DNA of 64,000 nucleotides, from the NCBI GenBank assembly GCA_037043015.1, contig CM073325.1, positions 17,153,001 to 17,217,000 on the forward strand. The letters are read 5' to 3'. Shown in pieces: positions 23,919 through 45,623 of this stretch. The notes beneath the pieces are model-generated. The model was not told the origin of the DNA. It was given only the letters and a program-made list of their open reading frames with translations, and ran no database searches. How positions within the stretch are numbered: position 1 is the first letter of the stretch; each line of letters starts with the position of its first letter. The stretch comes from Bryum argenteum. Taxonomy: Eukaryota > Streptophyta > Bryopsida > Bryales > Bryaceae. The position numbers were made by a program, and so were the translations under genes.

Positions 23919-25212
23919 TGTCGCGCACCTCTCCTTGAGGAGTGCCCGCAACACCAAGGGCCCAAGGGGGACACCGGAGTGACGCCCGGGCCTTGGGGTG
24001 CCAAGGTGAAGGGAACCTAAGTGGGCCTAGTGTGGGAGAGGACCCCGGGCGTTGGAGACGCCTCTCACCCACGGAGACTAGGAGCCACGAGGGAATGGAC
24101 ATGAGATTATAGAAGCTCATGTTGCCACGATTCCGGGATGCTAAGGAGCACCTCATTTGGAGGTGTGAGCTAAAAGTTATGGGAGTTGGAAGATTGTGGG
24201 ACTAAAGGGAGTGCTGTCCAGGGACAGTGCTGGACTGGGAAGCTGGCCCGGGACTCCCGAATCTTCAGAGGGGCATAACTCCCTCAGTACTTGTCGGAAT
24301 GAGGCAAGTAAGGTGTCTATCGGCATCTACTTGACGAGTAGATGTCGATAGAGTGGTCGCTCGTCGCGTTTGGATGCGGGACAAGGTAGATACGAGCCCT
24401 GGAAGGTTCGGGAAGTCTCCCGGGGCCTTCCAGCGGCTAAGGCATTGGGAGATTGGGTGGTCTTCCAAACCTTAGAGGTGTGAGGGTCCAGCCCTTCACC
24501 TAGGACCAGGGGGCTGCCGAATCCCACAGAGTATACTATGGGGAGGGCTGGTCTCCTCCCCACTCCCATGGTGCCTTGGTGGTGACCAAGGTGGGAGTCC
24601 CAGTGGTGTGGCTAGTGTTGGGGCCTCACCATGGGGACTCCCAAGCCAAGGTGAGTCCCAATGGGTGGAGCTAGTGTTGGAGCTCCACCATGGGGACTCA
24701 AAGTGCAAAATGAGGCACGGTGGGTGGAGCTAGTGTTGGGGCTTCACCACGGTGGCTCATAAGGACAAGGTGAGTCCCGGTGGGGAGCTAGTGTGTTGGG
24801 CTTCACCACGGGGACTCATATAGGCAAAATGAGGACCATGAGTGCTACCGATGTGGGGTGGTGTCTCACCGCCGGCGTTGTGATTACTTGGTGGCCTTGG
24901 GGTCACCATGGTGGTCATGGGCGGTGGTAAGGAGACACCACCAAGTGCGGTTAGGCCGCGTGGTATGGGAGTGCCACCAAGTTGGGCCTTGGACATAAGT
25001 GGAAGTCCGCACCTAACCATTGGCTACCTACGAAGGGGTTGAGTCCCGGTTGCATGAGTAAGAGGGATTGATAACCAAGCGGTGAGCTTGGTGGTTGGTA
25101 TGGAGAGCTAACTTTGTGCATGTGGGGGATGTGCAGAGTTAGCGCTCGTGACACTTGCTAGAGTTGGGAAGAAGTTGGTGTAAGCTAAGGTGAACTAGCA
25201 AGGGTTGCGACA
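23919..25212 (+). repeat. Element B 5' LTR
   Basis: 1294 bp. Its central part (about 24,590-24,830) is an array of imperfect ~60-bp units of the type GGTGAGTCCC...TGGGTGGAGCTAGTGTTGG...CACCATGGGGACTC. It contains the palindrome ATCTACTTGACGAGTAGAT (24,324-24,342). Confidence 0.93.
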
Positions 25213-25230
25213 CTTGGTATCAGAGCAGGC
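25213..25230 (+). other. Element B primer binding site (initiator tRNA-Met)
   Basis: CTTGGTATCAGAGCAGGC directly after the LTR; TGGTATCAGAGC is the standard plant initiator tRNA-Met primer site of chromoviruses and many Copia elements. Confidence 0.9.
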
Positions 25231-25264
25231 TTTTAGTACCCAAGTGCAAAGTTGTGAGGGAGCA

Positions 25265-26578
25265 ATGGGCAAGAAGAAGACCATTGAGGGTGATGAGCCT
25301 GGAGCTTCTAAGCGGCCACGCACGAGGGGGAACAAAGACCCCGATCCTACAAGTGAGGCTCATTCTCATGACTCCAATGAGCAAGCTGTTACTAGTGAGG
25401 GCAATGAGCAAATGGAATTGTCACTTCAAGAGGAGCCCTTGGGTGAAGAGGAGCGCTCTAGGTCGAGACGCCTAGAGTCTTCCCAAGGGGTGGAAAGACA
25501 AGATCCTCAATTGGCTTTCCAAATGAGAATGCTTGAGTTCATGGACTCCGTGAATCAAGAGCTCAAGCGTGGGAAGGAAGAAAGGGATCGCCAAGAGAGG
25601 TTGATTGAACACCTCATGATGCAAGGGTCCCGACCTTCATCTTCCACCAAAAAGTTGGCTAAGGTAAACATGCCAAGCACCTTCTCGGGACTTGGTAAGG
25701 CAAGGAAGGTGAAGGAATTCCTTCTTGAGATGGATAACTACTATGATGTCCAAAAGCCGGATGAGGAGGACAAGGTTTCCATTGCGGTGACATTTCTCAA
25801 GGATCATGCTCTTCAATGGTGGACAAGCAAAAAGGAGCAAGAGCCGGAGTTGGTGGCAAACTTGACTTGGGGTGGCTTCAAAGACTTGTTGAGTGAACGC
25901 TTCACACCGTAGTATCGGGAGTTGAGGGAAGGCATGAACTTGGTGCAAATGAGGCACACCGGGTCTCTCAAGGCCTATGTGCGTGACTTCAATGCCCAAA
26001 TGAATGCCACACCCAAGATGGATGAGTTCTCTAAGAAGTGCATCTTTTTGGGTGGGCTTCAAAAGTGGGTGGTGGATGCCTTGTTCAAGTTCCCAAAACT
26101 TCCTGAGGATGTGGCGGGCATCATCAAGATTGTTGAAAGGATTGAGGCTGATGGACCCGAGAGGAAGTCAAGTGGCCCCTCTCAACAAAGTGGATCAAAT
26201 AGGAATGCGGCTCGAGGCAAAGAGCGCAAGAAGTTTGGCTTTGGCAACAAACACAAGGGACAAGTGGATGGTGGAGCCTCTAACAAAAAGGAACACCAAG
26301 GGGGAAAGCCATCAAAAGGGGGAGACAAAGGTGATGACACCAAGGCCAAGAGGTGCCATGGTTGTGGCAAGATTGGCCACTTCATTGCGGAGTGCCCCGA
26401 CAAGAAGGTGAGTACCATTGCAAGTTTTGCTTGTGTTGAAGACCGCATACTAGAAGGAGGTTTTGTGGCCAAGGCAAGTAGCCTCAAGCCAAGGCCGGGC
26501 CTCTTGTTTCTTGAGGCCCAAGTGAAGGACAAAGATGTCTCATGTTTGGTTGATACAGGGCAACGCACTCCTTCATGA
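25265..26578 (+). pseudogene. Element B gag, with an in-frame stop
   Basis: Starts MGKKKTIEG. A basic N-terminus is followed by a capsid region (VKEFLLEMDNYYDVQKP...HALQWWTSKK) and a CCHC knuckle, CHGCGKIGHFIAEC, near 26,356. TAG at 25,910-25,912 after RFTP replaces a codon that is often Gln in this context. The downstream frame runs into the protease DTG and then breaks where a run of four G seems to have lost one base (26,560). Confidence 0.88.
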
Positions 26579-29500
26579 GTCCCAAACTAGCAAGGGAGTT
26601 GGGCTTGCCACCGCAAAAAGGCAAGCAAGCCCATCAATGTGCGTTTTGCAAAGGGCGAACCGCACAAGACGGAGGAAGTGGCGTTGCAAGTGACCTTGAA
26701 GTGTGGGACATTGGAGTTTGTTGAGAATTTCACATTATGTGAGATGGATGAGGTAGACCTCATCTTAGGGGATACCTTCTTTGAGGCGCACACAAATGAT
26801 GTGAGGCGCAAGCCCAAGACGGTTAGTGGTGCGCCGTGATGGCAAGGAGTTAGTGTTGAAGTTAACTCGTGGCCCTTCAATAGCGGGGGGCAAATTAAAC
26901 TTGGTCTCTTTAGACCAAATGTTGGAACATCAATTTGTGGTGATGGCTCGTGAAGAGCAACTTGGGCATGAGGGGAAGGGGGTGCAACAACCACTTCCCA
27001 AAGAAATTCAAGAGGTGTTGGCCAAGTACAAGGATGTGCTTACCAATGAGTTACCCAAAGAGCTACCCCAAGAAGAGAAGTGGATCACAAGATCGAGGTG
27101 CTACCTGGAGCTGAGCCACCTTCTAAGGCACCTTATCGGTTAAACCAAAAAGAGTTGATGGAGCTAAAGAAGCAACTAAACGACTTGTTGGAAAGGGGTT
27201 ATGTGAGACCAAGCAAGTCACCATATGGTGCACCGGTCCTCTTTGTGGACAAGAAGGATGGCAAGCTTAGGATGTGCATTGATTATAGGGCCTTGAATAA
27301 GGTGACCATCAAGAACAACTACCCTTTGCCTCGAATTGATGATCTCTTTGATAGATTGGCGGGAGCTAAGTACTTTAGTCGCATAGACTTGAAGTCGGGT
27401 TACTACCAAATCCGCATTGCGGATGCGGATGTAGAAAAGACCGCGTGCCGCACAAGGTATGGGTCTTATGAGTTCCTTGTGATGCCCTTTGGGTTGTGCA
27501 ATGCACCCTCAACATTCACAACCCTTATGAACACCATCTTTCGAGAGGAAATGGATGACTTTGTGATTGTCTACATCGATGACATCTTGGTGTTTTCCAA
27601 GACGGCCGAGGAACATGCAAGGCACCTTGAGGCAGTACTCATGAAGCTTAGAGACAACAAGCTTTATGCTAATGGGGAAAAGAGTGAGTTTGCACAACTT
27701 GAGATGGAGTTCTTGGGCCATGTGGTTACCGGAGATGGAATCAAGCCGGACATGAAGAAGGTGAAGGCAATTCAAGAGTGGAAGCGCCTTTCACAAAAAA
27801 GGACTTAGGTCATTCCTTGGCCTAGCAAACTACTATCGCCGCTTCATACGCAACTTCTCTAAGATTGCCAAGCCTTTGTCCGACTTGTTGAAAAAGGGGT
27901 GAACCAAGTATGGGATGAATTTTGCTACCAAGCCTTTGAGGAACTCAAGAACAAGTTGTCATCTCCACCAAAGGTTGAAGTTCCCCGAGTTTGATAAGCC
28001 CTTTGAGGTCCACACGATGCAAGTGACTTTGCCATTGGAGGCGTCTTGATGCAAGATGGTAGGCCAATTGCCTATGAGAGCAAGAAGTTGGATGGGTGTC
28101 AAAGGAGATGGCCAACTCACGAGAAGGAGCTCTTTGCGGTGGTGCATTGTTTGAAGACATGGCAACATTACTTGGGGTTGCACAAGACTAAGGTCTACAC
28201 CGATAATGTGTCTTTGAAGTATTTTGAGACACAAGCACAAATGAGTGCCAAACAATTGAGGTGGCATGATGCTTTGGCGCTCATGAATGTGGACTTGATC
28301 CACAAACCGGGCCGTGACAATGTGGTGCCGGATGCGCTAAGTAGAAAGGAAGAGTTTCATGCCATGAGCACCACCCAAGTCTTGCGGCTCATGTATAAGG
28401 GTGAAGGCAATTGGGAACGGCGGATAAGAGAGGGGTACATGAAGGACCCCGAGGCACAACAAATGCTTGGTATCTTAGGAAGGGCAAGAAGCTCAAGGAG
28501 ATCAAGTTGGTGAATGGATTGCTCAAGTATAAGCAAAGTAGGGTGTATGCTCCTCAAGGCAAGCTTAGATTGTTGGTTTTGAAGGAGGAACATGATAGTC
28601 CCATAGCCGGCCATAGGGAGAAAAGGCTACCATTGCAACGGTGTCAAGGAGGTACTATTGGCCGGGGATGAAAGATGACATAACCCACTTTGTGAAGACT
28701 TGTGTGAAGTGCCAACTTAACCGGCTTCATATCAAAAGCAAGCGGGCTTGTTGCAACCATTGCCAATTCCGCCGGGTCCTTGGCATAGTGTGTCTATGGA
28801 CTTCATCACAAGCCTTCCCGAGTCGCAAGGGTATGATGCCATCTTAGTGATGGTGGATCGGTTTAGCAAGTTGGCTCATATGGTGCCAACTAGAGGAACT
28901 CGAAATCGCGCTTGAGACCGCCAAGATCTTTCTCGATGCATGGTGGAAGCATCACGGGTTGCCAAGAAGAGTGATTGTGTCGATCGAGACCCAAAGTTCA
29001 CAAGTGCATTTTGGAGACACTTCTTTAGGAAGGTGGGAACCAAGTTGACATTTAGCACGCGCCTTCATCCCCAAACAGACGGGCAAACCGAAAGGGTGAA
29101 TGGGGTCTTGAACCAATACTTGAGGAACTTTGTGAGTGCGGACCAACGTGATTGGGTAGACTATGTGGGGTTGGCGGAGTTCGATTACAATGCGGCCACA
29201 CACTCGGCGACTAAAGAGTCACCTTTCAAAGTGGCCTATGGAGTGGAGCCACTCCAACCTCGCCGACTTAGCTCTCGAGGGGGCACATTCAACACCGAGT
29301 TCAACCAAGATGGTGAAGACTTGGCCAAGAAGCGGGAACATATGTTGGAAAAAACCAAGTTGTTGTTGGAGAAGGCAAGAAGGCGCTATGAGAAGCAAGT
29401 CAATGCCGGAAGACGTGAAGTGGAGTATGAGGTGGGACAAAAGGTGTTGTTGAATGTGAAGAACTTCACCATGCCCGAAGGCCTCACTCCAAAGTTCATG

Positions 29501-29884
29501 TCCAAGTTTGCGGGTCCGTTTCCCATTGTGGAACGGGTGTTCAAAGATGTGTATAAGTTGGAGCTACCACCCGAGATCAAAGTGCATCCAACATTCCATG
29601 TTTCATTGTTAAAGCCATTCAAGGAGGATACCTTGTGGCCGGATCGCAAGCAAGTGATTCGCCACCACCGTGAGTTGGTTGGACAACATTTGGAATATGA
29701 GGTAGAGGCCATCCTCAAGAGTAGGAACCTCAAAAACAAGAGCAAGGAATACCTTGTGAAGTGGCGAGGATACCACGAGAAAGAAGCAACGTGGGTGGCG
29801 GCAAAGGACATGGTGAATGCTAAGGAGGTGGTGGAGAACTTTGAGAAGAATAGGAGCTCCAACAAGAAGCAACGTAGGCATTGA
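26540..29884 (+). pseudogene. Element B pol, frameshifted, with C-terminal chromodomain
   Basis: Protease ligand DTG near 26,555. RT at 27,080-27,808 with [21 protein letters not shown] and VYIDDILVF (YIDD). RNase H at about 28,010-28,340. Integrase zinc module with CVKCQLNR at about 28,700, then the DDE core (VDRDPKFTS; HPQTDGQTERVN at about 29,070). The chromodomain EYEVEAILKSR...YLVKWRGYHEKEATW lies at about 29,695-29,820. At least five single-base frameshifts, several in short homopolymers. The chromodomain targets integration to marked chromatin. Confidence 0.9.
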
Positions 29885-30680
29885 TGAGGACATCAACCTC
29901 CATAGTGGGGAGGATGACTTGTAGCTTCGCGTACATCCACAACACTTGTACTTGTTCTTTGGATTTGGCAATAAAGTTTGGCTTTGGTGTGTGCAAAGAG
30001 AAAGAGTATGAGATGGAGTCCTAGTCTTGTACTTGTGCTAAGTTGGTGGAAGAGGGGGAATAGAGATGTGAAACCGAGTTGGGAAGGCCGAGTAATGGGG
30101 ACCAAGGCTAGGAGAAAGAGTGGATAAAACCATGAAGTCCCTTGGCCTTGGGCTTGTCCGGGCGGGGACAAGGTAATGGCGCGTGCTCATAAAAGCGCCA
30201 CTCCCACAAACTAGTGCAAGCTAGTGCATGGGAGTCATGAACCCATGCCTTGAAAGAGATAGTGGGATCCGAGTTGGGCGGAACTTGGCATTACCCCCGT
30301 GCGATCGAGTCGTGGTGTAAAAGCCATCTTGGGTTTGCAACCAAGACAACTTGGTGGAAGCATTGAGGTCCAGCCTAGTAGTCAAGGAAGAAGTGTTAGG
30401 CTAGTGGAGCCTAACTTGGAGAGCCAAGGTAAGGGCAATCCAAGAGGGTCTCAAAGTAGGTGGGTCTAGAGTAGTTTAGTTGCCTTGGAAGAAGTCCAGG
30501 GTTCTAAACGGACCACCTAGTGACGACACCTTTGAGACTTTGCCAAAGTTTGAGAGTGCATTGTGGGGTCGCGCCTGGTGAAACACAATGCTGCACCAAT
30601 GGGGATGGCAACCCAAGAGTTGGTGTGACCGACTACAAGTATAGTCGATGAGGGCATCGACTCCATTAGGTGGGGGTGAG
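29885..30680 (+). other. Element B 3' untranslated region and polypurine tract
   Basis: About 800 bp without ORF between the chromodomain stop and the 3' LTR. It ends in the purine-rich AGGTGGGGGTGAG immediately before TGTCGCG at 30,681, which is the likely plus-strand primer. A second purine block, GTGGGGAGGATGA, follows the stop codon. Confidence 0.7.
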
Positions 30681-31972
30681 TGTCGCGCACCTCTCCTTGA
30701 GGAGTGCCCGCAACACCAAGGGCCCAAGGGGGACACCGGAGTGACGCCCGGGCCTTGGGGTGCCAAGGTGAAGGGAACCTAAGTGGGCCTAGTGTGGGAG
30801 AGGACCCCGGGCGTTGGAGACGCCTCACCCCCACGGAGACTAGGAGCCACGAGGGAATGGACATGAGATTATAGAAGCTCATGTTGCCACGATTCCGGAT
30901 GCTAAGGAGCACCTCATTTGGAGGTGTGAGCTAAAAGTTATGGGAGTTGGAAGATTGTGGGACTAAAGGAGTGCTGTCCAGGGACAGTGCTGGACTGGGA
31001 AGCTGGCCCGGGACTCCCGAATCTTCAGAGGGGCATAACTCCCTCAGTACTTGTCGGAATGAGGCAAGTAAGGTGTCTATCGGCATCTACTTGACGAGTA
31101 GATGTCGATAGAGTGGTCGCTCGTCGCGTTTGGATGCGGGACAAGGTAGATACGAGCCCTGGAAGGTTCGGGAAGTCTCCCGGGGCCTTCCAGCGGCTAA
31201 GGCATTGGGAGATTGGGTGGTCTTCCAAACCTTAGAGGTGTGAGGGTCCAGCCCTTCACCTAGGACCAGGGGCTGCCGAATCCCACAGAGTATACTATGG
31301 GGAGGGCTGGTCTCCTCCCCACTCCCATGGTGCCTTGGTGGTGACCAAGGTGGGAGTCCCGAGTGGTGTGGCTAGTGTTGGGGCCTCACCATGGGGACTC
31401 CCAAGCCAAGGTGAGTCCCAATGGGTGGAGCTAGTGTTGGAGCTCCACCATGGGGACTCAAAGTGCAAAATGAGGCACGGTGGGTGGAGCTAGTGTTGGG
31501 GCTTCACCACGGTGGCTCATAAGGACAAGGTGAGTCCCGGTGGGGGAGCTAGTGTTGGGGCTTCACCACGGGGACTCATATAGGCAAAATGAGGACCATG
31601 AGTGCTACCGATGTGGGGTGGTGTCTCACCGCCGGCGTTGTGATTACTTGGTGGCCTTGGGGTCACCATGGTGGTCATGGGCGGTGGTAAGGAGACACCA
31701 CCAAGTGCGGTTAGGCCGCGTGGTATGGGAGTGCCACCAAGTTGGGCCTTGGACATAAGTGGAAGTCCGCACCTAACCATTGGCTACCTACGAAGGGGTT
31801 GAGTCCCGGTTGCATGAGTAAGAGGGATTGATAACCAAGCGGTGAGCTTGGTGGTTGGTATGGAGAGCTAACTTTGTGCATGTGGGGGATGTGCAGAGTT
31901 AGCGCTCGTGACACTTGCTAGAGTTGGGAAGAAGTTGGTGTAAGCTAAGGTGAACTAGCAAGGGTTGCGACA
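30681..31972 (+). repeat. Element B 3' LTR
   Basis: 1292 bp. Nearly identical to the 5' LTR; the differences I see are mostly single-base changes in length of G, C or A runs (for example AAAGGGAG versus AAAGGAG, CAGGGGGC versus CAGGGGC). TSD ATCTT follows. Confidence 0.93.
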
Positions 31973-31977
31973 ATCTT

Positions 31978-32012
31978 GGTTGCCACAGATTACACCACCA
32001 AATGGGTAGAGG
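31978..32012 (+). pseudogene. Element A integrase, 35-bp fragment between B and C
   Basis: Encodes VATDYTTKWVE, the start of the integrase core with its first catalytic Asp. It fits exactly between the fragments left of B and right of C. Confidence 0.85.
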
Positions 32013-32208
32013 TGTCAGAACGGAGACTACTAACAGAGAAGCATGAATAACACAATACTATAACATAATGTAATTGACGAAATGACCAGTGAAGGCAGAC
32101 GTGCCTTCACTGGCCTTTTATACAGGAAGATATGGCAGTTAATGCCAACTGCTAATAACTACCGCTGGGTCCTACGCATGGTTGGCGGCCCACGGCCCAG
32201 TCCTAACA
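32013..32208 (-). repeat. Element C 3' LTR
   Basis: 196 bp, identical to the copy at 38,829-39,024. The end of the pol frame (stop at 32,172-32,174) lies inside it. The polypurine tract follows on its right (CCCCCCCTTCTAGG in plus-strand view, 32,212-32,226). Confidence 0.93.
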
Positions 32209-35200
32209 TTACCCCCCCTTCTAGGTATAGCTGGTGGTTGGGGAGCATCTGGATGTAGTCTGTGAAAAGCCTGAACCATGAGTGGGGCGTTGTGTAAATG
32301 ACCTGCGGGCTCCCAGGAGTCTTGCTCAGGGCCATAACCCTTCCACGACACCAAATACTGCAGCCGCCGTCCACGTCCAACAATTCGCGAGTCTAGTACT
32401 TGACGGACCTCCCATTCCATATCCCCAGCTGGGGTGATTACCGGAGGCGGTGGTCGTTGCTGCCGGCCTGGAATTGTATCGGGGCGGTAGGGTTCTAAAA
32501 CAGCAACGTGAAATACATTGTGAATGCGCAGGGTGTGTGGTAACTGGAGACGGTAAACTAGATCAGAGAGTTTGGCGATGATCGTAAATGGCCCGAGGAA
32601 CTTAGGACCTAGTTTCTTGGACGGAGACGTTGTCGCTACATGCTCACTGCGGAGGAGCACCTTGTCACCTACATAGTACCGGGGTGAGTCCTGTACGTGA
32701 CGATCATAGTGGCGCTTGGCCTGTTCTCCGGCAATCTGGATCATTGTCTTGATCTCCTCATGGACTTGATGTAACAGCCGAACTCTGTCTTCTGCAGCCG
32801 GTACAATCGAAGTCGTAGGCTTGCTGAAGGACATTGTCGGGTGATAGCCATATGTTGCGTAAAAGGGAGAGAAACCTGTTGCAGAGTGGACGGAATTGTT
32901 GTAGGCAAACTCAGCTACCGGAAGAAGATCAGCCCAATCATCTTGGCGCTTAGTTGTGAACATACGGAGAATCTGCTCCAAGTATTGGTTCACCCGTTCC
33001 GTCTGTCCATCTGATTGAGGATGAAAAGCTGTTGTTGGGGCGGCCTGGATACGTAGAAGCTCATGAAGTCGCCGCATGAACTTGGAGACAAAAACTGCAC
33101 CGCGATCAGAGATTAAGTCGGTAGGAGTACCATGATGTTTCCAGACATGTTGTAGATACAGCTTGGCGGTACCAGCAGCGTCTATAGTTTCCGTGGTGGG
33201 AATGAAGTGAGCCAACTTCGTATTCTTGTCGACCACCACCATTATTGCGTCGTAGTTGTCGCTGAGAGGAAGCTTGACGATGAAGTCAACTGATACTCGT
33301 TTCCATGGCGCTTCCGCTGCCGGGATGGGCTGGAGAAGGCCGTAACGGGGATGTCGGGTGGGCTTGGACCTCTGACAGAGGTCGCAACCGTCGACATATC
33401 GGTGTACATATCTGGTCAAAGACGGCCAGTAGAACGTACGTGCTACTAGGTCCACCGTCTTTGCACGTCCTAAATGCCCAGCAGCGGGTGCGTCGTGGCG
33501 TGAACGGAGGATCTGTCGTTTCAACTCTTCGTTGTCTGGGACCATAACTGCCGCTCGGAAAAGTAACAGTCCGTCGCTGAAGGTATAATCTTGAAATTGG
33601 CGACGTAATTGTGCTGGGGCTTCGCCAGAGCGTGTTGTCAGAAATCCAAGGATTGGTCCAAGTGTGGGGTCCACCGGGGTAACTTCCTTGATCCGCTGAA
33701 AGATCCGGTCATCGCTCCATAATGGACTAACTGTCTCCAACATTGCTAACCGTAGCAAAGGTCTTGTATTGTTGTCCGTAGCAAGAGTGTCAAATCTCCG
33801 GGAAAGCATATCCGCACGTCCGTTGAGAGCTCCAGGACGATGTTCTATGACAAAGTTGTATGCTGAGAGAAGTTCCGACCACCGAGCCTGTCGGCGGTTC
33901 AAGACCTTGGTAGTCATGAACTGTTCCAAGTTCTTATGATCAGAGATTACCCGAATCTGATGAGGCGAGCCCTCGAGATATACGCGCCAGTCTTGAAAAG
34001 CCAAGACAATACTCAAAAGTTCTTTGTCATAAATGTCGTAATTCTCCTCAGCTGCAGACATCTTTGAACTGCGATACGCACATGGATGTAGGAGCCCATC
34101 AAGGCCGTACTGAGAGAGAACGCCACCGGTAGCCGTATCGGAAGCGTCCGTCTCCAGGATGAAAGGTTTGTCAAATTGTAGATGGAGTAATACCGGTGCT
34201 TCCGTAAAACGGCGACGAAGCTCCCTGAAAGCCGCCTCCGTTTCCGGGGTCCATGCGAACGGCTGGCCCTTCCTCGTAAGTCGGGTAAGAGGAACTGCGA
34301 TCTGTGAATAGCCACCAATAAACCTCCGATAGAAGTTGGCAAATCCCAAGAATGCCTGGACTTCACGAAGGGTCTTCGGTGTGGGCCAGTCCTTGAGAAC
34401 AGCTACCTTGTCCTGGCACATCTCGAGTCCTCGGCTCGAAACCACAAGCCCCAGAAACTCCACTGACTCTTTGTGAAATTCGCACTTTGATAGTTTGGCG
34501 TACAGTCCGTGCTGCTGGAGGCGCCCCAATACCTCCCGAACCACCGGTCGATGTTCTTTCAAAGTCTTGGAGAAGATGAGTATGTCGTCGAGGTAGATCA
34601 CTACTGAGATGTCGAGTAGGTCCCCAAATATCGTTTGCATGTGAGCCTGAAACTGGGCTGGGGCATTGGTAAGCCCAAATGGCATCACCAAATACTCGTA
34701 GAGGCCATATCGGGTTTTGAAGGCCGTCTTATACTCATGTCCCGCGGCCATCCGAACCCGATGGTATGCCTGACGAACATCGAGCTTAGTAAACACCTTG
34801 GCCCCTACGAGGCAATCTGTTAATTCCGGGATCAAAGGCAGCGGGTACCTATTTTTTATGGTCACATTGTTAAAATTCCGATAATCAATACAGACGCGGA
34901 GGGTTCTGTCCTTCTTCTTTGCAAATATGATTGGCGCAGAAACAGGGGACTGGGATCGTCGAATCCAACCCTTGCCAAGGTGGTCGTCGAGGTACTTGCG
35001 CAACTCTTCTAATTCCGCAGGAGACATGGGCCTCAACCCCATGTTGCGGGGCTCGTGTCCCTCCTTAAACTCTATCTTCATGTCAGAAGGTCCGTGCTGA
35101 GGAAGTGCGTTGGAGGCCTCCTCACTGAATGCCCCTTCTAGGTCAACGTAGTCCAAGGGAAGTGCCACCGCAGGTTGTGCTTGGACTGAAGAGAGCTCGG

Positions 35201-35800
35201 AGATCTCCAATGAGTATAAGTCAACTCCCTTGGTTGCTTGCCGAAATTTCGGTGGAGACGACAAGGTCGGCCGGATAGCAAGGACCTCGGATGGCAAAGA
35301 GGTCGGTAAACAGTGTTCTCCGCAGAAAGAGGAAGTAAATCGAACCACTCCGGTAGACCATCGGATGTCGGGGTCATGTCGCCATAGCCAAGGGGTGCCA
35401 AGTACACAGTCGTAGCGTCCGGTGTTGGTGATATCAGCCGTGAGGGTCTCAGCGTGGTCCCCAATCACCAGCTGAAAAGTTGCCTCGTGGGTCACTAAGT
35501 CTGTGTTGATAACGCGCCCGTCGATTACCCGAACCTCGCGGGGGGTGGACTTTACGGTAATCGTGGCGTGGCTAGCCTCAGCGAAAGTAGGATTTATGAA
35601 CACACCAGTGGCTCCAGAGTCCACCAATAACGTGGCTGGTCGTCCGTTGGCTTTTCCTGCTAGCTTTAAGTGTGTCCCGGGGTCGGTGGTCGCACGTAGA
35701 AAAAGTGGCTCCTCCTTCGGACTTGGCGTGTCAATCAGTGCCTGTTTGTATGTTGTGGTCTTTGCAGTTTGGCAAGGGCTCGGGTACTGAGCCGAAGGTA
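32172..35800 (-). CDS. Element C pol polyprotein (PR-RT-RNaseH-IN-chromodomain)
   Basis: 1151 residues from the first Met at 35,627, and open further upstream to the end of gag in the -1 frame, so expression by -1 frameshift is likely. Protease LLVDSGATGVF. RT has APIIFAKKKDRTLRVCIDYRN and [11 protein letters not shown] (YLDD). RNase H has LETDASDTATGG. The integrase zinc module is HDAPAAGH...CDLCQRS; the DDE core has VDFIVKLP, ISDRGAVF and FHPQSDGQTERVN. The chromodomain WEVRQVLDSRIV...YLVSWKGYGPEQDSWEP is near the end. The last residues are read through the polypurine tract into the LTR. Confidence 0.93.
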
Positions 35801-36886
35801 TCAGTCCCGGGCTTCCCCTTTTCCCGAAACACCGGCATCCCCTTCTCCAGTGGCAGAAAATGAAAGAGGTTTTGAAGGATTAGTTGGACACCGGGAACGT
35901 GTATGGCCTTGTTGTCCGCACCCCCAACAACGGCCTTGACGTTGAAACTCCTGTCGCTCCGCTGCCGTCTTTGCCATGGCCGTCGACTTCCTAGGAACCG
36001 GTGCAAGGGCATCGAGCTCCATTGGGACCGGGCCTGGTGCGGGGGAAGAGGTGAGGAACCGCCGCCCAGGGTGGGAGGCTGGAATAGTCGGGGTCACCGA
36101 TAGCCGCCCACCCTTAGGCCGCATGGCCCATAGCCGCTCATCAATCCGGGAGGCCCTCGCCATCCATCCCTGGAGAGTCGTGGGTAGTTCCTCTGAAGTT
36201 GCTATCGTATAGTGAACTTCGGTCTTCAAGCCTTGGCGAAAATGGGTAATGAGTGCTTCTTCGCACCATCCCACCTGAACTGCCAACTCATTGAACGCTG
36301 CTATGTAAGGGGCCACCCCTGCAGTTTGGCGGAGCGCCATGAGCCGGTCTTGGGCATGTCCCTTGCGATCAACCTCGCCAAAGACTGAAATGACCCCCGC
36401 TCGAAACTCCTCGTAAGAGGCCAGGAGTGGGTGACTCGTCTTCTCGTCGAGGGCCTGTAACAGAGGCATCGCCCATCCTTCCGCCGTCCCAGTCATATAA
36501 GATAGTGCGCATGTGATCTTTTGTCTGTCCGTGCCGTACCCCTGAGGATCGTTGTCAAACTGCAACCGAAGTTGTGCTAACCAACGATAAACGTCGCCGC
36601 CCTTCCTTCCAGCGAACTCTTTGGGGCGGGCAATCTTCGTTGCCCCCCTACTTGTTGGTCCTTCCTGGGAAGGTGCCGATGGAGGTGGGGTTGGCGGCCC
36701 TTGAATTCCAGTACTGCGGCTCATACATTCTTGGACGATGTGTGGAATTGCAGCATGTAACCCTTGGACCTGTTGCTGGACGGTATGCAGGGCTTCCAAT
36801 TGTTGCTGAATAAACACAGTTAGTTCCGCCATTCCATTCGCTGGTGGCGTCGGGGGAGGGACAGTTGGTGTGTCATTAATCTCCAT
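35801..36886 (-). CDS. Element C gag
   Basis: 361 residues, starting MEINDTPTVPPP. Short coiled region (VFIQQQLEALHTVQQQVQGL), then a capsid domain (KEFAGRKGGDVYRWLAQLRL...YGTDRQKITCALSYMTG), then one CCHC knuckle, CWGCGQQGHTRSRC, near the C-terminus. Intact. Capsid/nucleocapsid of the virus-like particle; pol follows in the -1 frame. Confidence 0.92.
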   Translation of the reverse strand: MEINDTPTVPPPTPPANGMAELTVFIQQQLEALHTVQQQVQGLHAAIPHIVQECMSRSTGIQGPPTPPPSAPSQEGPTSRGATKIARPKEFAGRKGGDVYRWLAQLRLQFDNDPQGYGTDRQKITCALSYMTGTAEGWAMPLLQALDEKTSHPLLASYEEFRAGVISVFGEVDRKGHAQDRLMALRQTAGVAPYIAAFNELAVQVGWCEEALITHFRQGLKTEVHYTIATSEELPTTLQGWMARASRIDERLWAMRPKGGRLSVTPTIPASHPGRRFLTSSPAPGPVPMELDALAPVPRKSTAMAKTAAERQEFQRQGRCWGCGQQGHTRSRCPTNPSKPLSFSATGEGDAGVSGKGEARD

Positions 36887-38817: not shown

Positions 38818-38828
38818 ACTGGTCATTA
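38818..38828 (-). other. Element C self-primer binding site
   Basis: Plus-strand ACTGGTCATT at 38,818-38,827 touches the 5' LTR with one base between. It is the inverted copy of AATGACCAGT at 38,897-38,906 inside that LTR, where the mRNA is predicted to start. No tRNA-like TGG primer site is present. This is the Tf1/sushi arrangement, in which the mRNA 5' end folds back as primer. Confidence 0.7.
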
Positions 38829-39024
38829 TGTCAGAACGGAGACTACTAACAGAGAAGCATGAATAACACAATACTATAACATAATGTAATTGACGAAATG
38901 ACCAGTGAAGGCAGACGTGCCTTCACTGGCCTTTTATACAGGAAGATATGGCAGTTAATGCCAACTGCTAATAACTACCGCTGGGTCCTACGCATGGTTG
39001 GCGGCCCACGGCCCAGTCCTAACA
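38829..39024 (-). repeat. Element C 5' LTR with core promoter
   Basis: 196 bp. In the sense (minus) direction: TATAAAAG (38,938-38,931), then a perfect 12-bp-stem palindrome (38,902-38,929), with the predicted transcription start at 38,906, 32 nt after the first T of the TATA box. The first ten bases ACTGGTCATT are complementary to the primer site. Confidence 0.9.
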
Positions 39025-39029
39025 AGAGG

Positions 39030-39463
39030 CGAAGCCTTTACGCAACAATACTGCCATGGTCACCGCTACTTTCCTCTACGAGAACGTAATTACTCGTTTT
39101 GGGTGCCCTTTGGAAATCGTTTCGGATCAAGGCACGCATTTCGTCAATGCAGTCATCGAAGATCTCATGGACAACCATCTCATCAAACACAGACCAAAGA
39201 TTTTTATTATCCCCAAGGAAATGGACAAGCAGAATCTACCAACAAAACTATTATAACCATGTTGCGCAAATTCGTGATAGCTAACCAAGTCGACTGGGAT
39301 GACTGTTTGCCTGCAGCTTTGTCGGCCTACAGAGTAGCTACAAAAGCAGCCACCCATTTTAGCCCATTCGAACTCGTGTACGGAACACAGCCGTTGTTAC
39401 CGACAGAATATATTGTGCCAACCTTTAAATCCATGCAGCCACGTGATTACCAACCTCACCGTA
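39030..39463 (+). pseudogene. Element A integrase fragment between C and D
   Basis: Integrase core continues: TRFGCPLEIVSDQGTHFVNAVIEDL (second catalytic Asp), then PQGNGQAESTNKTI with the catalytic Glu in the other frame, then AYRVATKAATHFSPFELVYG. One frameshift near 39,220. Cut by element D after the fifth base of CCGTA at 39,463. Confidence 0.87.
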
Positions 39464-39950
39464 TGTCAGGGACACGGAAACAGATGATAAGAATATGTGG
39501 AAACTAACAAGAACTGACAGGAGCTTGAATTAACAAGAAGAGTATACGAACAACAACAAGAGAGATGAGCTAGAGCTCCAAGAGATGCGTTGTCGAGACT
39601 GAGGTTGCCCTCAGCCTCGACTCCTATATATACTAGCTAAGAAGAAGGTTCTCCAGAACCTTCCTCAACCTAGGACCTTCTAGGATCTTCCAAGAACTTC
39701 CAAGACCTTCCAGAAGCTTCCAGGGCCTTCCGGAAACTTCAAGGACCTTCCAAAAACTTCCAGAGACTTCCAGGAACTTCCAGAAGTTTCCGGAAGCTTC
39801 TAGAACCTTCTAGAATCTTCCTAAGTTGTCTACCTAGTACGTGGCCGTGACACAGGGAATCTTCAAGGAATCTTCAAGGAATCTTTTAGAGAATCTTCAG
39901 AAAATATTTTAGAAGAACCTTCTAGAAACTTCTTGTGTATGTCCGTGACA
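39464..39950 (-). repeat. Element D 3' LTR
   Basis: 487 bp. In the sense direction it runs from 39,950: GAATCTTC-type units (39,850-39,940), a dense TTC/GAA array (39,645-39,830), TATATATA (39,632-39,625), predicted start 39,600, then R/U5. The polypurine tract lies just right of it (plus-strand CACCTCCCCTTCT, 39,952-39,964). Confidence 0.92.
39778..39820. promoter_or_regulatory. Nine-unit perfect heat-shock-element array
   Basis: TTC at 39,778, 39,788, 39,798, 39,808 and 39,818 alternate with GAA at 39,783, 39,793, 39,803 and 39,813, each exactly 5 bp apart. That is nine contiguous nGAAn units in alternating orientation, about 145-195 bp before the LTR TATA box. Three units suffice for a heat-shock-factor trimer. 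More units without perfect phase continue on both sides (for example TTCCAGAAGCTTC and TTCCGGAAACTTC near 39,710-39,740). Confidence 0.85.
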
Positions 39951-40000
39951 TCACCTCCCCTTCTAGCTTCGAGGTCTCCGAGAAGCAACGTTGTTGTTAG

Positions 40001-40356
40001 TCAATACCAACGCAGGAAAATGAAAATCTGCCGCATGACATCTGCAATAAACTCCAATTGTTGTTCACGAGGCAAGTGGTTCATCGGTCCTTGAAGCCAA
40101 CGATAGTGGCCGACGCCTTCCACTTCTGACCAAGCGTGAACTTCTGTGTCTTCGTTATGGAATTGTTCTGCAAACACACCTTCTGGCAGACTATTGAAAG
40201 CGGGCTCGACCTCAAATACAATCACCAAATATTGATTGCTCGGAATCCTCCTCCGTCGGCGTCGTGGCGTAGGCGGTTCTTCATCTCTGGTCGCCTTCGA
40301 GAGTTGGTTGGTTGAGATGGCATAACCGGTATGCTATCTATCTCTTGACTATCCAT
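40001..40356 (-). pseudogene. Element D small 3' ORF, one frameshift
   Basis: Starts MDSQEIDSIPVMPSQPTN at 40,356, shifts frame near 40,290, then runs through an Arg-rich stretch (PRRRRRRIPSNQY) to a 75-residue tail (VIVFEVEPAFNSLPEGVF...FLRWY) ending at 40,001. It lies between the chromodomain and the polypurine tract, where some elements carry an extra ORF. I do not recognise the protein. It may also be a decayed end of pol. Confidence 0.45.
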
Positions 40357-40519
40357 GACTAAAAACCAAACTATGACTATAGAGAAATTCTATCTAGAAC
40401 AAAATATGTAAATCAAATGTGAATCAAGGTTGTGTTCACTCTCCCCTTTATTCTCCCGAGTGGGCAAGCGTCGGAGAAAGTTATCGTCGGAAAGGCTTAG
40501 GTTTATGAGGATATCGTTG

Positions 40520-43500
40520 ATGAAATTCCCATCACTTTTCCGGCGCATTTACAAGATTTTCGGCATGTTCCCACGTTCTTTCATTGATGTCGTATCCGCT
40601 CCAATGCACAAAATACTCCAAGTTTCGCCTTACACGCCGTGAATCCGATCCTTATCCACCTCATATTCCTCGTGGTTCTCAATTTCGATACTAGGTGGCG
40701 GCCCTCGCACTCTTCCCGAAAAGTCGACTCTCGATAAGGTTCCAATAAAGACACGTGGAAGACCTGGATGTACCTTCATAGTAGCTGTAACTCCAACCGA
40801 TACGCCACCTGGATTGATTTGTTTCGGATGGCAAATGGTCCCAATCTTGATAGTCCAACTTATCACACGGCCGCTTGGTCTTGATATTCCGTCGAAGCGA
40901 CCATACTTTATCTCCGATCTTGAAAGTAGGTGCCTCATTCCGAAATTTATCTGCGGACGCCTTGACGACTCTTGGGCGGTTTTCAATTGAAGTCTCAGCG
41001 TTGCTTGAAATTCCGATAGTCGCTTCGCAAAATCTTCTTTCTTTGGGTTGTTTTTGGCCACCAATTCCATAAATCAAGCTTCGGTGGTATCCGTAGTTGG
41101 CAAAGAATGGTGTTTGTTGGGTCGACGCATTTAATAGTATTGTTGTAGGCGAACTCGGCAAGCGGTAGATACTGATCCAATCGTCTTGGCGATAGTTGAT
41201 GGTGCAACGTAGATCTTTGCTCCAATACTTGATTCACCCGTTCCGTCCGGTCCGTCCGTCGGTTTGAGGATGAAATGCCAAGAAAGCTTGATATCCACCT
41301 TCAATATCTCAAATAGAGATTTCGAACTTGAGACGAACTGGGTTCCGCGATCCGACACAATATCATCTCGGCAAGCCGTGATAACGATATACATTATCAA
41401 GAAAGAGTCTTGTCAGATCTTCGCTCGACGATTTCTTCTTGCAAGAACATATAATGCGCCATCTTCACAAATGATCTACCACAACAAAGATGCTCTCAAA
41501 CGAGTTTGAAGGCGGCAGTCCGTAATGAAATCCATGGAAATCAAGACCATGGTCGATGCGGGATAGGCAATGGCCGCAAAAAAGTCCATAGGGGCGATGC
41601 CGAGGGTTCTTCGACCTTGAACAAATATCACAAGAGAGAACAAACTCCTTCACATCCTTCCACATTTGGGGCCACCGAAGTCTCATGAAATAAGCTCCAA
41701 TGTCTTGTTGTATCCAAAATGTCCTGCGCACTGGAAAGTCATGGCGTGATTGGAGAACTCAAGTCGTGTGTTCGTCCTTTAGGAATATACGATCGCTCTT
41801 CAAAGTACAAAAGATCTCCCTCCACCTTGAACTTGTCATTATCAGCACGCTTCTTGATCTCGAGAGCTACAGAATCTTCAATTGTCGCAGTACGTATCTG
41901 GTTAAGGAAGTCCGTATCAATTGGCATGACAGTAGCGCAAATTCTAAAATGCTCCGGTTTCAAAGATGTGGTGCATTGTTGATCAAACGTCGCTTCTCCA
42001 AATTTTTAGCGCGCGATACGATCTCCTCGATAAGGCATCGGATAGTCCTTGTTGCTTCCCGCCGATAGGTAATAACAAAGTCAAATCGTGACAACGACAT
42101 ATTCAACCGAGCTTGACGTCGATTCAAGACTCGAGCCGACATAAAGTACTCCAAATTCTTGTGATCCGTGTATACGGTCACTGGATGTGCAGCGCCTTCG
42201 AGAAAGTGTCGCCACTCTTGGAAGGAATCTACTATGGCAAGAAGTTCCTTATCGTGGATTTCATAATTGATTTCATTGAAAAAACTTTCGAGAATAGAAC
42301 GCCACTGGATGAAGCTTCCCGTCCACGTCCATCTCTCAAAAAGTACGGCTCCCAAAGAAAATCGTAACCATCGGTCTCCAAATAGAAGGCCTTTGTAAAG
42401 TCAGGATGTACCAAGATTGGAGCTGTGATAAATGCCATCTTGAGGTCTTGGAATGCCTTTTCTGCTTGAGGTCCCCATTCGAGCTTGTTCTTACAAGTCA
42501 ACCGAGTGAGTGGAGCAACGACTCGAGAATAATTCTTGATGAAGATTCGATAGAAGTTAGCAAATCCAAGAAAACATTGTACGTCTCTAACCGTCTTCGG
42601 AACCTCCCATGATACAATTGCTTCCACCTTCTTAGGGTCCATCTTCAAACCGTCTGTAGTTGCAATGAACCCTAAAAACTCCATCTCGGTTTGGTGGAAT
42701 AGGCACTTCTCCAACTTGGCGTAGAGTCCTCGTTCTCGTAGTTTCTCGAGGACCAAACGAACGTGCTTCTCGTGCTCTTCTTCGTTTTTGGAAAATATCA
42801 GGATGTCATCCAGATAGATGACAACAAAGTCGTCAAGGTGCTCCCGAAAGATGTCATTCATCATGTGTTGGAAAACAGCCGGAGCATTGGTAAGGCCAAA
42901 AGGCATGACATTATATTCAAAATGGCCATACCTTATGCGGAACGCTCTTCCCACTCGTCTCCTTCCTTGATCCGTACGAGGTTGGTAAGCTCCCCTCGGA
43001 TCAATTTTTGTAAAGATCTTTGCACGCCCGAGCGGCTCCAAGAGACCAGAAATCAAGGGTAACGGATAACGATTTTTCTTAGTTACCTTGTTGAGGCCTC
43101 GATAGTCCACGCACATTCGTAAGGAGCCATCCTTCTTCTTTACAAACAAGATCGGTGCCTCAGCTGGCGACTTTGAATGACGAATGAAGTTCTTCGCTAG
43201 ATTCTCGTCAATGTACTTTCGCAGCTCCGCTAACTCCGTTTGAGAGAGATTGTAGATTGGGCCAAAAGGCGGTTGTGCTCCTTCTTGCAGGTCTATGGCG
43301 CAGTCGTATGGCCGATGCTCCGGTAGTATGTCCGCGTTCTTCTTCTGAAACACGTCCTCAAAATCCTTATATTGCTCTGGTATGCTTGCCGTCGAACTCT
43401 TCTCCGTGCTAGTTGGGGCTGCATAGATGACAAAGTCTTCTTCTTTGGATGATCGTCTTTAACGCCCTTGCTCCAATAAACAATGGTTTCCCTATCTTGG

Positions 43501-43948
43501 GATGTCTACTAGGTTGGCTCTTGGAATGTTCTTTGGAAAAAGTCATTTTCCGCAACTTCCAATCTATGGTAGGGTTATGTTGTTCTAACCAAGAGAGACC
43601 TAGGATGACAGGGTTTGACGGGGTTCTAATGACATTAAAAACGACGTAACTACTATGGTCCTTAAACGCCTCTCTATAGGTATTCATCATGGGTGACACC
43701 GCCAGGACAATAAAGGTCGTCCATCTATCACCTCTACATAAACAAAGTTTGGACTTACATACTAGACGAATCTTGTGGCGCTTAGCAAATTCTTCATCTA
43801 AAAAACAAGTAGATGCTCCCGAATCTAATAGAGCTAAAGTTTTGTGTTTTTGAGGACCAAGAGACAAGGAATTGTAAAACAACGGGCGGGTTGGACGAGA
43901 GAAAGAGGAACTGATTGTTGTTGTGGCATTGAATCGTCCCGGCCGCAT
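40520..43948 (-). pseudogene. Element D pol, frameshifted, with chromodomain
   Basis: Protease LALLDSGASTCF at about 43,850. RT at 43,353-42,232: [21 protein letters not shown] and [11 protein letters not shown] (YLDD). RNase H follows in the next frame ([19 protein letters not shown]). Integrase: zinc module CDICSRSK near 41,630, then the DDE core in fragments to about 41,000. The chromodomain (EEYEVDKDRI, then in another frame YFVHWSGYDINERTWE) is at about 40,690-40,550. The frame changes at least five times. Confidence 0.87.
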
Positions 43949-43986
43949 GGTTCCCTCTCAGAATGCGGCATCGTCGTTTTCCGGGA

Positions 43987-44955
43987 TCACCGCACTCCTA
44001 GTCTTAACAATGCGCCGGTTCTGCTTCTTGGGGCAATTTCCAACCTTGTGGCCTTCTTCTCGCAGTACAAACAGAGTCCTTCTTCCATACGCCGTTTCTT
44101 CTCTTCTGGAGTAAGAGCTTTGACACGTGCCGCGTCGATTTGCATGGCTTCTGCCTCCGAATGAGAACTCAAATTGTTTGCCGACATACTCGTGGTGTAG
44201 CGAATCGTTTGGTATTTTGGGCGCTGGTCTTGACGACGCTGGAATAAACGGTTGTCGCACTTTATAGCTTGGCTAATGGCTTCGTTGAGCGTTTGCGGAT
44301 CAGGAAGAGATAAAAGTAGGTCCTTCACATCATCCCTCAAACCCCAATAAAACTGACTCACCAATGCTTCTTCGCCCCAGTTGATGTCACTAGCCAGTGG
44401 TTTAGAATCCGATGCGTAGACTGATGCAGAGCGCATTCCTTGTCGTAGTGATCGGATCTTTGTTGTAGCCCATCGGACCTTGTCATGTTCGCCAAATGCT
44501 TCTGCAAATGCCTCCAAGAACGTCTCAAAGTTGCTCAGAATTGGCGATCGTTTCTCGAACAAGGGGGTAAACCACGACAAAGTTTGCCCTGTAAGCAGAG
44601 TTCCAACAAGTCCAACACGCGCCTCCTCCGTCGGATATCGTTCAGGCTGTAAAACTGTTATCAACTTGATTTGGTTGACAAAACCTCGAAACTTGGAACG
44701 CGTTCCGTCGAACTTGTCAGGAAGACTAACTCTAGGCTCCTTCCGTTGTTGAATCATTGGGTTTTGTTGAACCAAAGGTGTAGTCGCCTCCTCCGGTGTA
44801 GTTGCTTGAGACTGGTGAATCCTGGATGATGTTATCCCGGATGCTCCGTCATTGTGAAGTCTTGCCATGGCTCCTTCTATCTTTGCTTGTCTATGTAATA
44901 ATGCAGCAAGAGCACTCATGATGGCGTCCAATTTGGATTCCAAATTTTCAGCCAT
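43987..44955 (-). pseudogene. Element D gag, frameshifted at its end
   Basis: The start at 44,955 (MAENLESKLDAIMSALAALL) follows a short leader after the primer site; an earlier in-frame Met at 45,009 is less likely. The capsid region LPDKFDGTRSKFRGFVNQIKL resembles gag of chromoviruses of fungal/moss type. The zinc knuckle is split by a one-base shift: CLYC in one frame, then EEGHKVGNCPKK in the next. Confidence 0.85.
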
Positions 44956-45128
44956 ACTAACGTCTTGATCTTTGACTAAATCTACGAAAGAAAAGAAAAA
45001 ATTTGACAAGAGAACAATATTGGTTTAGAGGAGGGTAATCCGCAACCTCTAAAACACTAGCACACCTTCGAGAAGAGGGTAATCCACTCTCTAACAAGAA
45101 GGGACTAACTCGATATTTGTGAGAAGGT

Positions 45129-45139
45129 AGTCTCGACAA
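45129..45139 (-). other. Element D self-primer binding site
   Basis: Plus-strand AGTCTCGACAA, two bases from the LTR edge. It is the inverted copy of TTGTCGAGACT at 45,266-45,276 in the 5' LTR, where the mRNA is predicted to start. Eleven bases match, the same length as in Tf1. No tRNA primer site is seen. Confidence 0.72.
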
Positions 45140-45141
45140 AC

Positions 45142-45623
45142 CGTCGGGGGCAAAAAACAGATGATAAGAATATGTGAAACTAACAAGAACCGACGGGAGC
45201 TTGAATTAACAAGAAGAGTATACGAACAACAACAAGAGAGATGAGCTAGAGCTCCAAGAGATGCGTTGTCGAGACTGAGGTTGCCCTCAGCCTCGACTCC
45301 TATATATACTAGCTAAGAAGAAGGTTCTCCAGAACCTTCCTCAACCTAGGACCTTCTAGGATCTTCCAAGAACTTCCAAGACCTTCCAGAAGCTTCCAGG
45401 GCCTTCCGGAAACTTCAAGGACCTTCCAAAACTTCCAGAGACTTCCAGAACTTCCCGAGAGTTTCCGAAGCTTCTAAACCTTCTAGAATCTTCCTAAGTT
45501 GTCTACCTAGTACGTGGCCGTGACACAGGGAATCTTCAAGGAATCTTCAAGGAATCTTTTAGAGAATCTTCAGAAAATATTTTAGAAGAACCTTCTAGAA
45601 ACTTCTTGTGTATGTCCGTGACA
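45142..45623 (-). repeat. Element D 5' LTR with core promoter
   Basis: 482 bp. Sense order: heat-shock-like units, TATATATA (45,308-45,301), palindrome 45,271-45,294 (10-bp stem, one mismatch, TTGC loop), predicted start 45,276. Its dense heat-shock array has several one-base deletions compared with the other LTR, so the phase is broken; about three perfect units remain (TTCTAGAATCTTC). Confidence 0.9.

Follow-up and report, generated by a model that had tools for sequence, protein, structure and literature searches.

The stretch of Bryum argenteum DNA analysed here, 64,000 nt long and called the window below, contains the LTR elements A, C and D (Table 1). The genome has 90 matches to the chlorophyll a/b-binding family, which mark its owner as a photosynthetic eukaryote. 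To judge from the open reading frames and the flanks, all three elements seem to sit inside a single gypsy element of the + strand, having interrupted its integrase region (20332-48708); pieces of this host element lie between the insertions at 31973-32012 and 39025-39463. For the piece 39464-39025, 39 other places were matched among 40 scored.

Table 1. Features of elements A, C and D, in positions of the window
Feature	Position	Strand	Remarks
Element A	23919..31972	+	control; site TGGTATCAGAGC after LTR; TSD ATCTT
5' LTR of C	38829..39024	-	196 bp; identical to 32013-32208; TG...CA ends
3' LTR of C	32013..32208	-	196 bp; identical to 38829-39024; TG...CA ends
TATA box TATAAAAG of C	38931..38938	-	first T at 38938
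Presumed RNA 5' end and self-primer ACTGGTCATT of C	38897..38906	-	exact inverse of primer site; covaries across relatives
Putative primer-binding site AATGACCAGT of C	38818..38827	-	one base (T) past 5' LTR
U3/R hairpin of C	38900..38931	-	left arm between TATA box and presumed start; right arm enters primer
gag ORF of C	35801..36886	-	361 aa; Retrotrans_gag, Ty3_capsid
pol ORF of C	32172..35627	-	1151 aa; protease, RT, RNase H, integrase, SH3_Tf2-1, chromodomain
Element D	39464..45623	-	related to C; TSD TACGG
D LTRs	5' 45623-45142; 3' 39950-39464	-	
Presumed self-primer AGTCTCGACAA of D	45266..45276	-	32 nt after TATATATA (first T 45308)
Putative primer-binding site TTGTCGAGACT of D	45129..45139	-	exact inverse of 45276-45266; two bases past LTR

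The sequence TGGTATCAGAGC behind the LTR of A is one that we take to be a primer site of the tRNA-Met type, and A serves as the control. No inverse of at least 7 nt to its own LTR is present there at offsets 0-12, a length of match that 118 of 300 shuffled LTRs hold by chance.

Element C is flanked on both sides by a 5-bp target site duplication, CCTCT. The domains of its pol run protease, RVT_1, RNase H, Integrase_H2C2, SH3_Tf2-1 and Chromo, the Ty3/gypsy order with the chromodomain after the integrase; the rve integrase core scores under its cut-off. Of the best 120 of its 7,828 protein relatives a minority come with an organism name (fungi, a catfish, Closterium, a protist); the four closest, which are among the other rows, have 68-87% identity. 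Domains and listed relatives together fit the Tf1/sushi-like Tcn1 clade, a placing by content and similarity rather than by a tree against the other plant chromovirus clades; a moss or other land plant as host would suit this clade. A by-eye reading of the chromodomain against Y24/W45/Y48 of PMC3350952 gives W1072, W1095 and Y1098 as its aromatic cage. The chromodomain of A (28940-29884, +) has Y, W and Y at the three cage positions. Such a cage is no marker of self-priming, because A, with a site of the tRNA-Met type, has it too.

An inverted pair at the primer site of element C

An earlier note on this DNA had remarked that ten bases beside the 5' LTR of C reappear, exactly inverted, within that LTR. 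Both copies, read from the sequence, bear this out over the full length (38827-38818 against 38906-38897), and counting from the first T in TATAAAAG to the start of the inner copy does give 32 nt. The note had also reported that C has no tRNA-type site, and a search for TGG in the 30 nt after the LTR found none.

Could ten bases match by chance? Among 100,000 first-order random LTRs, 85 match any of four offsets with an exact inverse of 10 nt, and in 5 such an inverse lies 25-36 nt from the position of the TATA box; a chance match as the origin of the pair is rejected by this simulation.

The reading that we favour, at a probability of roughly 0.88, is that C is a Tcn1-like chromovirus which, in the manner of Tf1, provides the primer for its reverse transcription itself. 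Transcription would start at or beside A38906, about 32 nt past the TATA box. The RNA would fold so that its first ten bases pair with the primer site just beyond the 5' LTR. RNase H would then cleave after base ten, and the released 10-mer would serve to prime minus-strand DNA through U5 and R. The observations from which the model is drawn are the exact inverted pair, its distance from the TATA box, the covariation seen in relatives and the occurrence of the same layout, in other letters, in the neighbouring element D.

Joint change in the relatives of C

With the LTR and leader of C as query, 22 other places in the genome were found. A pattern composed of the LTR end and the primer site, any letter being allowed at the variable base, occurs exactly at 16 places, C included; the sets examined were the exact and the one-mismatch places. 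At 15 of the 16 the LTR holds an exact 10-nt inverse 70-89 nt upstream, and at the other (L033) there is one mismatch. The 14 one-mismatch places with loci comprise five with an exact inverse, two with one mismatch (L052, L053) and seven with 2-3 mismatches; among the five, L054 and L062 are the opposite strand beside L055 and L061. The seven were set aside, six as background and L051 as the opposite strand of an LTR that lacks the site.

Leader-bearing copies, C included, number 24, and the inverse is exact in all ten positions in 20 of them and has one mismatch in four (L032, L033, L052, L053). Independent variation of LTR and primer site in other copies was what the earlier note had named as speaking against self-priming; what is seen is mostly joint change. 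Base 6 of the primer takes three states, T (2 copies), C (14) and A (8), and the partner base in the primer site matches it in 22 of the 24, the exceptions being L052 and L053, where the mismatch falls at the covarying position itself. Such joint change is to be expected under self-priming, because the site of a new copy could be copied from the primer.

A tree of the LTRs with the motif masked (21 rows, weak in its deep forks, and drawn up without L052, L053 and L110, which are too divergent) has at least two changes at position 6 on each side. The three divergent copies form a lineage, called ACTCG here, with the primer ACTCGACATT and a site of CGAGT type, position 4 having changed on both sides; L110 is exact, and L052 and L053 have one mismatch each. 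By this reckoning the independent co-changes are few, about three: two or more at position 6 and a single one at position 4.

Plant promoters normally start transcription some 30 nt past the TATA box. Of the 22 copies checked, 21 have a TATA or TACA box at a distance of 30-32 nt ahead of the motif; in L052 neither was found. This spacing bears on the possibility that self-priming is real but the primer internal, with transcription starting upstream and the RNA beginning with the hairpin described below. The right arm of that hairpin does enter the primer directly, and the start site is placed from the TATA box only, both of which suit such an arrangement. Against it, the end of the match coincides with the start to be expected from the TATA box, with the near-constant spacing just given, and the hairpin, were it part of the 5' RNA of C, would pair the first seven bases of the primer at about -26 kcal/mol, as against -13 kcal/mol for the primer duplex. 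An internal primer thus appears very doubtful, and a primer at the 5' end of the RNA is the preferred arrangement.

Some copies have peculiarities of their own. L032 has an ACTGG primer and yet a site of the CGAGT type, the state of the ACTCG lineage, which may be decay or the trace of an exchange between lineages. L021 and L023 keep the family LTR and primer site with a different sequence directly behind, and are perhaps non-autonomous or interrupted elements. Ten further places (L067, L070, L072, L074, L075, L078, L086, L089, L096, L097) lack the site behind the LTR and were classed as 3' or solo LTRs. A near-match of the LTR motif (CCCTCACTCGCCATT, at L094), considered as a further family, has no TATA box and a best site with 3 mismatches, and was rejected as background, as was L111. 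As to relatives outside this genome, a scan of viral_contigs with C pol gave no match, and in one with alignment A1 there were 17 stretches that fitted a pattern, none of them confirmed.

The same layout in element D

Element D shares 52% identity with C in RT and 26% in gag. It too has an exact inverted pair, of 11 nt and in letters unlike those of C, and the spacing from the TATA box is 32 nt, as in C; its site begins TTGTCG, which is no TGG-type start. For the 3' LTR of D, 40 places scored out of 470 candidates are 98-100% identical, and D is, judging by these copies, a member of a large young family. Of 12 copies fetched, three of them picked as known 5' copies, four have a leader and eight are 3' or solo LTRs; in all four with a leader the 11-nt site is exact and begins after a spacer of two bases behind the LTR. 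The D primer and the primer of the ACTCG lineage have CTCGACA in common, so C and D may share an origin rather than being independent.

Might C be primed instead by an ordinary tRNA or a half-molecule of one pairing with AATGNCCAGT, the LTR match being incidental? Half-tRNA primers are known in some plant copia lineages (PMC6317226). However, besides the lack of a TGG within 30 nt after the C LTR, the site follows three states of the LTR in 22 copies out of 24, a pattern that pairing with a tRNA would not bring about, and the different site of D also matches the LTR of D itself. We regard tRNA priming of C as extremely unlikely, and the self-primed reading is kept in what follows.

Predicted folds and a hairpin at U3/R

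When the RNA of 25 copies (the 24 and D) was folded from the presumed start, the full helix of primer and site was predicted in 19 and a partial one in five; L060, whose site is preceded by GT, stands outside this count. For C the 137-nt fold of the 5' end is no better than that of shuffled sequences (z -0.11; 79 of 200 shuffles equally good), and the case for self-priming rests on the match, the covariation and the position rather than on overall fold stability. On the minus strand, base pairs are possible between GUC after the C primer (38892-38894) and GAC at the end of the LTR (38830-38832), with a small internal loop between; the same letters are found again in many relatives of C, and L055 and L061 break the pairing.

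The inner copy of C belongs at the same time to another structure, a hairpin of 14 bp that extends back to the TATA box, with a predicted energy of -26.3 kcal/mol and z of -8.1. It is the strongest 37-nt window in the C LTR, and its counterpart likewise in the D LTR. Among 21 LTR copies chosen by hand as representatives and folded, it is significant (z <= -2.8) in 18, namely C, D and 16 of the 19 others, and not so in L048, L060 and L052. The arms contain GGCA/TGCC in C and GTGAGGG/CCCTCAC in L053; copies with A at base 6, L032 and L055 among them, have GGAG/CTCC, and D has different letters again; in these examples the letters vary between families and the pairing is retained.

A hairpin of this strength, overlapping the motif in 18 of 21 folded copies, raises the possibility that the motif is kept as a palindromic promoter or DNA hairpin and that its match to the primer site is a by-product. 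Position 6 argues otherwise: in L032, L055 and L061 the letter in the U3 arm stays constant while the LTR motif and the primer site change together. That account seems highly improbable. In such A-state copies the hairpin pair at primer base 6 is gone and the pair between primer and site is retained, so the constraints on the hairpin and on the primer site are separate ones.

What, then, might the hairpin do in a self-primed element? The primer letters would stand at both ends of the RNA, and the left arm, which belongs to U3, would lie ahead of the 3' copy only. Should transcription begin at the motif, the left arm would be missing from the 5' end of the RNA, and only the 3' copy could fold shut. 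The hairpin might, as a tentative suggestion from this model, be a lock that deals with the problem of having two Rs, the 3' copy of the primer being folded shut, and so kept off the primer site, and the 5' copy free to prime. The predicted energies are about -26 kcal/mol for the hairpin and -13 to -16 kcal/mol for the primer on its site. Among the titles and beginnings of abstracts searched, none describes a U3/R hairpin for self-primed elements, and one beside the primer is possibly new to the literature.

Relation to known self-primed elements

In C the feature of the Tf1/sushi type, a primer site complementary to the LTR at the presumed 5' end of the RNA, is present; that of tRNA-primed chromoviruses, a TGG-type site, is absent from the 30 nt past the C LTR and from the start of the D site, and present in A as TGGTATCAGAGC. 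In Tf1, as is presumed for C and D, the first bases of the RNA are complementary to the primer site; RNase H cleaves the Tf1 RNA between its bases 11 and 12 (PMC7175516), and D shares the length of 11 nt with it. Tj1 similarly has the complement of its 5' LTR at the primer site (PMC4600332). Unlike in Tf1 and Tj1, the match is of 10 nt with a spacer of one base in C and of 11 nt with a spacer of two in D, and C and D are known from their sequence alone. The fungal GalEa copia elements also have no tRNA site, and a Conserved Hairpin Site near the priming region, but that hairpin follows immediately on the 5' LTR and lacks a complement in the LTR (PMC5445492), whereas the hairpin of C and D is inside the LTR at U3/R.

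As to plants, the earlier note had considered self-priming in a plant genome to be without a well-described precedent. The self-priming itself is supported by the comparisons above; its novelty was only partly right. Self-priming has been predicted in plants for the greater part of the Tcn1 chromoviruses of moss and club-moss, which like C have a chromodomain integrase and no tRNA site, and also for a copia lineage, TAR (Houba, Osr-1), which resembles C in this respect and differs from it in not being a chromovirus (Neumann et al. 2019, PMC6317226). The SM-Tcn1 element of Selaginella, on the other hand, was described as having neither a tRNA site nor a self-priming site (Novikova et al. 2010, PMC2864245). 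The available part of PMC6317226 contains no experimental proof of self-priming in a plant, and self-priming published for plants rests, as far as that part goes, on prediction at the level of clades. What C and D add to the Tcn1 prediction given there is natural covariation, a near-constant distance from the TATA box and the U3/R hairpin.

C is a real Tcn1-like chromovirus and probably self-primed, the comparative evidence for this now going beyond the single match noticed at first. Several families of a single genome show joint change of LTR and primer site, which amounts to compensatory evidence provided by nature, and within the window itself two neighbours, C and D, have different primer letters. 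The hairpin is the part of C most worth following: the lock, if true, would explain how a self-primed element chooses the correct copy of R, and could be tested by small changes to one arm.
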